Below, piece after piece: positions 30,860 to 33,258 of a DNA stretch of 42,403 bases. The notes beneath the pieces are model-generated. The model saw only the letters and a program-made list of their open reading frames with translations, was not told the origin of the DNA and made no database searches. Every line of letters begins with the position of its first letter. The stretch's first letter is position 1. The stretch lies in the NCBI GenBank assembly GCA_017530365.1, contig JAFXMK010000033.1:1-42403 (forward strand), read 5' to 3'. The position numbers were made by a program, and so were the translations under genes. This stretch comes from Bacteroidales bacterium. GTDB taxonomy: Bacteria; Bacteroidota; Bacteroidia; Bacteroidales; F082.

Positions 30860-32113
30860 ATGACGAACATCGATCAAGTAAATTTTGAAAACAAACGCGT
30901 GGTCATCCGCGTCGATTTCAACGTCCCGTTGGACGACAACTTCAACATCACCGATGACACTCGTATGCGTGCGGCTTTGCCGACCATCAACAAGGTTTTG
31001 AACGACAAAGGCATGGTTGTGCTGATGTCGCATCTCGGTCGCCCGAAGAAGAACCCGGACCCCAAGTTCTCCATTAAGCCCATTATCAAGCATTTGGAAG
31101 AGCTGCTGGGCCGTCCCGTGCAATTCGCCGACGACTGCATGAAAGCCGCCGACCAAGTGGCTGCCATGAAGCCCGGTGAGGTGCTCGTGCTCGAAAACCT
31201 CCGTTTCTATGCCGAAGAAGAAGGCAAGCCGCGTGGCATCGAGAAAGAAGACCCAGGCTATGACGAAGCCAAGAAAGCCATCAAGGCCTCGCAGAAGGAG
31301 TTCACCAAGACACTGGCCAGCTATGGCGAATACTACATCAACGACGCCTTTGGTACCGCCCACCGTGCTCATGCCTCCACCGCTTTGATTGCTGACTATT
31401 TCGATGCCGACCATAAGATGTTCGGCTACCTGATGGGCAAGGAAGTGGCTGCCGTCAACAAAGTGATGAATGAAATCCAACGTCCCTTCACCGCCATCAT
31501 GGGTGGCTCGAAGGTCTCCACGAAGATCGAAATCATCGAAAACCTGCTCACCAAGGTGGATAACCTCATCCTCTGCGGCGGCATGACCTATACCTTCAAG
31601 CGTGCCTTGGGTGGACATATCGGCAACTCCATCTGCGAAGAGGACAAACTCGACCTCGCCTTAGATATCATCGAGAAAGCCAAGCAGAAAGGTGTCAACC
31701 TCTATCTCTCGTTCGATGTGGTGGCCGGCGACAAGTTCTCGAACGACGCCAACACCATGGTGGTCGATCCGATGAACGTGCCCGACGGCTGGGAAGGTAT
31801 GGACTGCGGTCCCGAAAGCCGCAAGTTCTACGCCGGCATTATCAAGCAGTCGAAGACCATCCTTTGGAACGGTCCCTGCGGTGTGTTCGAGTTCGACAAG
31901 TTCGCTGAAGGCTCCAGAGCCTTGGCCGAAGCCATCGTGGAAGCCACTGAGAAGAACGGCGCCTATTCGCTCATCGGCGGCGGTGACTCCGTGGCTTGCA
32001 TCAACAAGTTCGGCCTCGCTGACCGCGTGAGCTACGTCTCTACTGGTGGCGGTGCCCTGCTCGAAGCTATCGAAGGCAAGGAATTGCCCGGCATCGCAGC
32101 CATCAAGAAATAA
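30860..32113 (+). CDS. pgk: phosphoglycerate kinase
   Basis: A 417-aa glycolytic enzyme (1,3-bisphosphoglycerate + ADP to 3-phosphoglycerate + ATP). Typical signatures: RVDFNVPLD near the N-terminus, [18 protein letters not shown] in the hinge region, and the nucleotide loop [13 protein letters not shown] with the closing [14 protein letters not shown]. It is full length and GC-richer than the accessory genes. The last base of its TAA stop is the first base of the next gene's ATG, so its expression is tied to that of a CARF-nuclease protein, an unusual partner for a core enzyme. Confidence 0.97.
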
Positions 32114-33258
32114 TGTCTAAGACCCTAGTCAATATTATCACTCGCGAGCATCCTATCGCCGCTTACCTCTTTGTGAAAGAATACTTTGAGGAAGGCGATA
32201 GGTTGCTCTTTGTCTCGGCCAACGACAGTTTCGACTGCATTACCCCTTTGGTCAAGGTGTTGAAAATCGATCCGAGCTTGGTGCAGCGCATAGTGCTCAG
32301 GCGTATGGCCGACAGCTATACCTACGAACGCATCTGCCGTACCATCAACAACGGACTCAATCAAGAAACACAGTATTACGTCAATCTGGCTGGCGGTAGC
32401 CGTTACATGGCCCTGTCGGTACAACATGTGTTTTCAAACTACAACAGCATTTTCTTTTATACCCAAACTCAACAAAACATCATCGTAAGGACGATCTTCG
32501 ACAATAGCATTTACGACAACGACGACCAGATCATGCCTATCAAATACAAGATGAACCTGGCCGAGTATTTCGATGCCTATGGCTTGAGTCACGATCTTGA
32601 AACCTTGGAGTCACCCATCTCAGATGAAACCAAGGCACGACAGATGTTTAACTTGTTTGCAAAGCAGCAAATAAGGGGCAATGAATACAGGATTTTGGAT
32701 GTATTACGGGAGAAATACCGTGGATGGAAATACCTGAAGATCGCTGAAGCGGAACAGCCTGTCAAAGAAAGCATGACACCCGTACCAAATCTGGGCAAGT
32801 TCTTGGAGTTCATCAAGTTTATCCCAAAGGAAGAAGGTGTGCTAAGCCAACAGGAACTTGAATACTTGACAGGAGGATGGTTTGAGGAATATGTCTATCA
32901 TCTCATTAAGACAGTGGTACAACCCGACGACATCGCCATGGGCGTGCGCATTGACGGTTGCACCGACATCAAGCACAACAACGAGTTGGATGTTTGTTTC
33001 ATCAAGAACAACCAGATGCATGTCATCGAATGCAAGAGTGGCATCAGTTCGGAAAGCATGTTCAATGAGATTGTGTATAAAGTGAGTGCCTTGAAAGAAG
33101 TGCTGTTGGGGGTGGATTGCAACTCCTACATTTTCTCGTTGAAGAAAGACCCGACAGGGGATTTAAAGAAGATCGCCACTTATATGGGCATCACGTTTTG
33201 CGATTACGAATGCCTCACTCGTGAGGATAAATTACGGAAGGTGCTGCAAAAAATGTGA
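32113..33258 (+). CDS. CARF-domain nuclease of the Card1/Can2 (DUF1887) type
   Basis: A 381-aa protein with two recognisable parts. N-terminal CARF-like Rossmann domain (about 1-150): the ligand-site loop NLAGGSRYMAL (91-101) follows the form N-x-T/A-G-G-T/S-x-x-M of cyclic-oligoadenylate sensors. A winged-helix-like linker (about 175-240) follows. C-terminal PD-(D/E)xK nuclease: Glu258/Glu259 (GGWFEEYVY), Asp293 (NELDVCF) and Glu306-x-Lys308 (HVIECKSG). Family knowledge: Card1 and Can2 cut DNA and/or RNA when bound by cA4 made by type III CRISPR Cas10. No cas gene or CRISPR array is in this window. It overlaps the pgk stop (TAATG) and its 3' end overlaps the convergent LD-carboxypeptidase gene by 27 bp. 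Confidence 0.8.
   Translation: MSKTLVNIITREHPIAAYLFVKEYFEEGDRLLFVSANDSFDCITPLVKVLKIDPSLVQRIVLRRMADSYTYERICRTINNGLNQETQYYVNLAGGSRYMALSVQHVFSNYNSIFFYTQTQQNIIVRTIFDNSIYDNDDQIMPIKYKMNLAEYFDAYGLSHDLETLESPISDETKARQMFNLFAKQQIRGNEYRILDVLREKYRGWKYLKIAEAEQPVKESMTPVPNLGKFLEFIKFIPKEEGVLSQQELEYLTGGWFEEYVYHLIKTVVQPDDIAMGVRIDGCTDIKHNNELDVCFIKNNQMHVIECKSGISSESMFNEIVYKVSALKEVLLGVDCNSYIFSLKKDPTGDLKKIATYMGITFCDYECLTREDKLRKVLQKM

Follow-up and report, generated by a model that had tools for sequence, protein, structure and literature searches.

A pgk-coupled orphan nuclease of the Card1/Can2 family, from a Bacteroidales lineage that has very probably left type III CRISPR

Gene content of the locus

The window, by which we mean the whole stretch of 42,403 nucleotides analysed here, carries an orphan CARF-PD-(D/E)xK nuclease gene of the Card1/Can2 family on its forward strand (32113..33258). 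The open reading frame was confirmed and encodes 381 amino acids. Upstream on the same strand is pgk, the gene for phosphoglycerate kinase (30860..32113; PF00162, E 4e-149), itself preceded by a lipid-kinase-like gene with DAGK_cat and YegS_C domain matches (29872..30843, forward strand), an arrangement already proposed in an earlier, sequence-only reading of this DNA. The two genes pgk and nuclease meet in a TAATG junction (32111..32115, forward strand), where the last A of the pgk stop codon TAA (32111-32113) is also the first base of the nuclease ATG (32113-32115); this single shared base at 32113 was likewise part of the earlier description. On the reverse strand, a convergent neighbouring gene for an LD-carboxypeptidase (peptidase S66; 33232..34104) overlaps the 3' end of the nuclease gene by 27 bases.

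The protein combines an N-terminal CARF domain (residues 5-152, PF23400; 32125..32568, forward strand) and a C-terminal PD-(D/E)xK nuclease domain (residues 250-345, PF09002; 32860..33147, forward strand) in a single chain, the architecture that defines the Card1/Can2 family (DUF1887; CARF4-PDDEXK). The Pfam matches to Card1_endonuc (E 2e-20) and CARF_Card1 (E 3e-10) are both above the gathering cut-offs, PADLOC assigns the protein to CARF4--CARF_PDDEXK (E 3e-59), and a phmmer search of the PDB finds Card1 (E 2e-14), Can2 (E 3e-13) and VC1899 (E 1e-8). A search of NCBIfam gave no match. The predicted structure, a monomer model, matches Card1, VC1899 and Can2 over its full length when compared by VIA-align 2 on Foldseek's best 1000 PDB chains, and contains both the CARF and the nuclease fold. 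The sequence-only reading had named a Card1/Can2-type CARF nuclease and offered structure prediction as a check; Pfam, PADLOC, phmmer and the predicted structure all agree with it, and the protein is almost certainly a member of the family.

Catalytic residues and the predicted ligand pocket

The nuclease motif Glu306-Cys-Lys308 is present together with Asp293, as is the CARF ligand loop NLAGGSRYMAL (residues 91-101; 32383..32415, forward strand), recognised from sequence and alignment. Open reading frame, loop and catalytic residues are all as first described. In a residue table, 44 orphans were set against 16 type III-linked proteins, among them Card1 and Can2. The table excludes L071, L133 and L136; L123 consists of a CARF domain only, and for L118, one of the 16 type III-linked rows, Cas10 lies on another contig of its genome. 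Glu258, Asp293, Glu306 and Lys308 are invariant in all 44 orphans.

The predicted ligand pocket of the orphans is kept but altered. The accessible text of PMC7969007 gives Ser19, Thr42, Lys99 and Tyr118 as cA4 contacts shared by Can1 and Can2, of which Lys99 falls in the ligand loop. In sequence alignment these Can2 residues correspond to Thr10, Ala36, Arg97 and Tyr116 of the window copy. Compared with Can2 of Sulfobacillus thermosulfidooxidans (PDB 7bdv) and of Dysgonamonadaceae (8bao), the window copy thus keeps the tyrosine and exchanges lysine for arginine, serine for threonine and threonine for alanine. At position 97 the exchange is complete: Arg is found in 44/44 orphans and Lys in 16/16 type III-linked proteins, among them Card1 of Treponema succinifaciens (PDB 6wxw, 6xl1). 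Position 93 is Ala in 43/44 orphans versus Thr in 16/16 type III-linked proteins, position 14 is Pro in 44/44 versus Thr in 12/16, and position 17 is Ala in 36/44 versus Asn in 14/16. Two further residues, Arg76 and Glu72, never vary among the orphans but lack conservation in the type III-linked proteins, although Can2 does carry Arg at position 76. Tyr116, the equivalent of Can2 Tyr118, is present in 44/44 orphans, and Thr occupies position 36 (Can2 Thr42) in 17/44. As arginine can bind phosphate, a pocket of this kind might still bind cA4.

VC1899 of Vibrio cholerae (PDB 1xmx) resembles the orphans in having Arg at position 97 and differs from them in having Val where all 44 Bacteroidales orphans keep the Tyr118 equivalent. 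Position 97 is no simple marker of CRISPR linkage, since Lys is also found there in eight of nine other Card1-like proteins not known to be Cas10-linked. One of these is a CARF-PDDEXK protein (L077, 8143-9351 on contig C9 of G041; PDLC01880, E 1e-35) that is 23% identical to the window protein and keeps Lys in the ligand loop. Its gene lies directly after an arginine-decarboxylase-like gene, and G041 has no Cas10 match.

Phylogeny and selection

In a maximum-likelihood tree of 67 proteins, a branch supported at 100/100 sets all 44 orphans apart. In a second tree, rooted with three distant CARF proteins as the outgroup (43 rows, 18 of them orphans), the orphan clade again has 100/100 support, and its sister group, at a moderate 85/86, consists of four type III-linked Bacteroidales Card1 proteins (L068, L069, L075 and L150). 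Both trees carry warnings of numerous long branches in the type III-linked and other rows. The window protein is 35-36% identical to L068, L069 and L075. In these nearest relatives the nuclease gene follows csm genes, precedes a Csx20-type gene (identified by PADLOC for L068 and L075, by eye for L069 and L150) and encodes a GGTK loop, whereas the orphan has none of these features. With type III-linked Card1 as the sister group, descent from a type III effector is the simplest reading, and the orphan clade most likely derives from a type III-linked Card1 effector. The pocket changes of the orphans lie on one stem branch and so form one set of events.

Purifying selection is indicated by dN/dS of 0.04-0.11 in the seven of ten orphan pairs for which it could be computed; dS was saturated in three of the ten, and three of the seven computed values are rough, with dS of at least 2. 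dN is low in both domains of the nuclease. The best explanation is a vertically inherited chromosomal gene in one Bacteroidales clade. Recent horizontal acquisition of the nuclease was also considered and is unlikely, because the flanks are conserved and the orphans form a single clade.

Association with Cas10 and type III CRISPR

What is understood of CARF nucleases comes for the most part from Cas10 and cyclic oligoadenylate, and orphans among them are already known. Each CARF family includes genes that are not linked to CRISPR, according to the accessible text of Makarova and others 2014 (PMC4012209). In the corresponding text of PMC9704534, Card1 is an effector of type III CRISPR and cA4 is its activator. 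For the orphan, neither Cas10 nor RAMP was found in the window's genome (88% complete, 50 contigs), and no CRISPR-like array turned up in a k-mer scan of the window; in control loci the scan recovered array-like repeats at six of seven type III loci and missed those of L078. The orphan status claimed in the sequence-only reading holds, and the marks of a type III ancillary effector, a type III locus nearby or Cas10 in the genome, were not found.

Within the genus, 3 of 99 genomes have a Cas10 match (PF22335), and only one of the three, G058, has the orphan. This amounts to one of the 51 genomes with the orphan and two of the 48 without it (Fisher p 0.6), with no association. Completeness is 90% or more and contamination 5% or less in 20 of the genus orphan genomes, and Cas10 was found in none of these. 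Related loci gave 26 further genomes, of which 23 belong to the orphan clade (three with Cas10) and three have other Card1-like proteins (all three with Cas10). Across the order, 393 evenly sampled genomes included 26 with a match to the window protein and 44 with Cas10; Cas10 was present in 0/5 orphan-clade genomes versus 10/21 genomes with other Card1-like proteins, and in eight of these ten it shares a contig with the Card1-like gene, at a distance of about 10 kb or less. Overall, 4 of 75 orphan genomes have Cas10 versus 14 of 26 with other Card1-like proteins (Fisher p 3e-7, which is a guide only, the genomes being related and not independent). The genomes are without exception draft assemblies, most if not all of which are MAGs, and the Cas10 model also matched in an E. 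coli control, so it may over-count and not under-count.

The 75 orphan genomes comprise the 51 genus genomes, a further 23 to which loci L045-L067 and L070 led, and G243. L053, L055 and L056 were assigned to the orphan clade by their 44-45% identity and not by the tree, L061 belongs to the genome of L057, and G461 was dropped as the genome of L051. Of the 26 other genomes, which may overlap, 21 come from the order sample, and the remaining five are G001, G041 and those of L068, L069 and L071; some order-sample rows were left out (G169, G362, G446, G496, one of three G483 copies; some weak matches).

Two of the four orphan genomes with Cas10, G058 and G108, have a type III locus with its own separate GGTK-loop Card1 beside the csm genes, followed by a Csx20-type gene (called by eye in G108). 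In the other two, G115 and G117, the orphan is the sole PF09002 match, and the Cas10 loci look Cmr-like by eye. The lack of Cas10 in the window's own genome, its rarity overall and the separate Card1 in two of the four genomes that have it weigh against the earlier suggestion that the nuclease responds to a distant type III system. The orphan lineage has very probably broken with type III CRISPR. Csx20 was found in three of the 99 genus genomes, in G058 and G001 beside a type III Card1 and in the orphan-bearing G070. The G070 match (L153, 332-1222) lies on a 3-kb contig, C155, in a genome with no Cas10 match, and the contig may be a remnant or a piece of an unassembled type III locus.

Other nucleotide synthases

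The genome-wide search for synthases that had been proposed as a check found, besides the lack of Cas10, one SMODS CD-NTase in the window's own genome. It is the sole SMODS match there and lies on another contig (G000:C47); the window nuclease has no CD-NTase adjacent to it in an operon, as a CBASS effector would. Across the genus, SMODS was found in 8 of 99 genomes, 6 of 51 with the orphan and 2 of 48 without (Fisher p 0.27). On C47 the CD-NTase is followed by a 187-aa membrane-protein-like ORF (L141, 5570-6989), and a TIR-like ORF and a restriction specificity-like ORF were recognised nearby by eye. This locus looks like a CBASS/restriction defence island. No mCpol match rose above the cut-off in the 99 genus genomes, which is a weak negative, as none of 14 controls did so either; one match below the cut-off lies in a genome without the orphan.

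Linkage to pgk

A search of the window's genus with the nuclease matched 53 of 99 genomes. An orthologue is present in 51 (55-100% identity; in broken pieces in G075), and the matches in G001 and G041 are distant relatives only. pgk was located in 90 of the 99 genomes. In all 46 genomes with both genes on one contig, the nuclease gene follows pgk in the same orientation; the remaining five orthologue-bearing genomes have the two on separate contigs. The spacing falls into three ranges. In 13/46 genomes the two genes overlap by 1 or 4 bases, save for one genome in which a gap of 4 bases separates them; in 3/46 they are 78-140 bases apart, and in 30/46 the distance is 0.8-4.5 kb. TAATG-type junctions are also seen in pgk-coupled relatives of the window nuclease. 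The lipid-kinase-like gene precedes pgk at genus loci as part of a conserved neighbourhood, and many loci have genes for LD-carboxypeptidase, a MORN-repeat protein, rpiB and a LUD-domain protein downstream, in varying order and orientation. A survey of pgk neighbours in related genomes, also proposed earlier, thus bears out the linkage within the genus; none of 27 loci outside it (L045-L071) has a pgk match within flanks of up to 6 kb, some of them much shorter. At L043 (3273-5915) and L044 (3262-5904), an ATPase-like and a secreted beta-helix-like gene, recognised by eye, lie between pgk and the nuclease gene, and the interval varies in length across their sub-branch. The pgk-linked copy in G075 (L090, 8204-9304) is in pieces, with an in-frame stop.

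The other 48 of the 99 genus genomes have no orthologue of the orphan clade. Those with a full-length pgk match have pgk identities of at most 84%, save G086 (88%), whose contig ends about 440 bases past pgk. Identity of pgk gives no clean divide, as G079, at 83%, carries the nuclease. Four orthologue-less genomes have only pieces of pgk. The contig end cuts pgk in G004, G088 and G068, which are uninformative on the presence of the nuclease, and G030 (pgk 89% over the last 67 residues) has no nuclease match in about 6 kb beyond pgk. Nine genus genomes have neither pgk nor nuclease. A lipid-kinase match near pgk was found in none of 15 fetched genomes without the orthologue (flanks 1.2-5.3 kb), and in one of these, G001, rpiB and a gene for a LUD protein lie beyond pgk.

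The Bacteroidetes-type -7 box has the consensus TAnnTTTG. We found it in none of 13 pgk-coupled copies, within 120 bases upstream of the start, and in 10 of 17 distinct uncoupled genus copies examined, always 26 or 28 bases from the start. These 17 copies derive from 19 rows, in which L014/L043 and L016/L044 are the same genomes. The full two-part promoter pattern fits only one uncoupled genus copy, so the contrast in the -7 box is a hint. Outside the genus, the box occurs at 9 of 22 loci, at varying distance. The window's branch may have lost its own promoter and ride on pgk. From the TAATG junction and the lack of a -7 box in the coupled copies, the nuclease of the window's sub-branch probably relies on pgk for both transcription and translation. 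Such reliance would mean that the protein is steadily made and must stay silent until a ligand activates it.

Function and evolution of the orphan nuclease

We favour, with moderate confidence, the explanation that the protein is a metal-dependent Card1/Can2-family nuclease gated by a ligand, and that its gene has departed from the type III pathway and now belongs to the chromosome in a clade of Bacteroidales. By analogy with Card1 and Can2 we infer dimerisation, nuclease activity and ligand gating at the CARF interface. The nuclease would act as a homodimer, a nucleotide-type ligand would bind across the two CARF domains and bring the nuclease domains together, and the activated enzyme would cut RNA and/or DNA, so that the cell is slowed or arrested. 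VC1899, an orphan whose structure has been solved, has weak RNase activity that is not regulated by cA4 and has no type III CRISPR association, in the accessible text of PMC7969007. Given this weak activity, an orphan may have little activity. Cas10, SMODS CD-NTases and the ring nuclease Csx20 do not track with the orphan and Lys is replaced by Arg in all 44 orphans compared, so the ligand is probably not Cas10-made cA4, and we lean towards a ligand other than a cyclic oligoadenylate. Candidates are a signal of core metabolism, RNA damage such as 2',3'-cyclic phosphate ends, and a phage-induced nucleotide. The earlier idea that the protein may sense another nucleotide signal fits better than an answer to type III CRISPR.

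Three other explanations were weighed. The orphan might be a resident receiver for cyclic oligoadenylate made by transient type III systems on plasmids, prophages or unassembled contigs. Its family and fold, the Tyr116 kept in 44/44 orphans, the four genomes with Cas10 (in G115 and G117 with the orphan as sole PF09002 match) and the Csx20 match on the 3-kb contig of G070 are all consistent with such a role. However, Cas10 within the genus is found in 1/51 genomes with the orphan and 2/48 without it, G058 and G108 keep a separate GGTK Card1 beside their csm genes, and the Lys-to-Arg exchange extends to 44/44 orphans, which makes the role unlikely. That the orphan serves a CBASS or other CD-NTase system, taking cyclic nucleotides from a SMODS synthase in the same genome, is highly improbable: the window's genome does hold such a synthase, on another contig, but it adjoins what looks by eye like its own membrane effector, and SMODS occurs in only 6/51 orphan-bearing and 2/48 other genus genomes. 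A housekeeping nuclease, constitutive or gated by RNA ends, could act in RNA quality control or stress and not in defence, and be linked to growth through co-expression with pgk. The synteny, the strong purifying selection and the position downstream of pgk (46/46, overlapping or nearly so in 13/46) speak for it, and RtcR is a precedent as a non-CRISPR CARF regulator activated by RNA with 2',3'-cyclic phosphate, according to the accessible text of PMC9879122. Yet the tie to pgk is not fixed (0/27 loci outside the genus, flank up to 6 kb; 0.8-4.5 kb apart in 30/46), and the 48 of 99 genus genomes without an orthologue argue that the gene is not essential across the genus. We regard this housekeeping role as improbable.

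Under the favoured explanation of a ligand-gated nuclease that left type III CRISPR, a fuller account can be put forward tentatively. A Card1-type effector may have escaped once from type III in Bacteroidales, had its CARF pocket remodelled and become fixed, in one branch co-translated with pgk, so as to sense a cellular or phage-induced nucleotide that would be new for CARF nucleases. The outcome may be phage defence, RNA quality control or growth arrest. This would be a possible case of an immune effector that moved to core physiology in gut Bacteroidales. The orphan lineage has intact catalytic residues, purifying selection on both domains, a diagnostic loop change and CRISPR-linked sisters in the same order, and is a good system for finding the ligand of a non-CRISPR CARF nuclease. 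Among the matches listed for literature on CARF proteins there is no paper on the orphan clade.

The link to pgk looks like one of position and expression, not of glycolytic function. A functional tie to glycolysis was considered and set aside, as the genes overlap or nearly overlap in 13 of 46 genus genomes and are 0.8-4.5 kb apart in 30 of the 46, and no pgk match lies within flanks of up to 6 kb, some of them much shorter, at the 27 loci outside the genus. Of the tie to central metabolism proposed from the sequence, position and expression have support, and nothing beyond them does. In one branch outside the genus (L047, 5821; L054, 5998; L059, 5998), the nuclease gene starts inside the end of a large secreted-protein-like gene, its ATG and the stop codon of that gene overlapping within 4 bases (ATGA), and coupling to an upstream gene thus appears to have arisen more than once.
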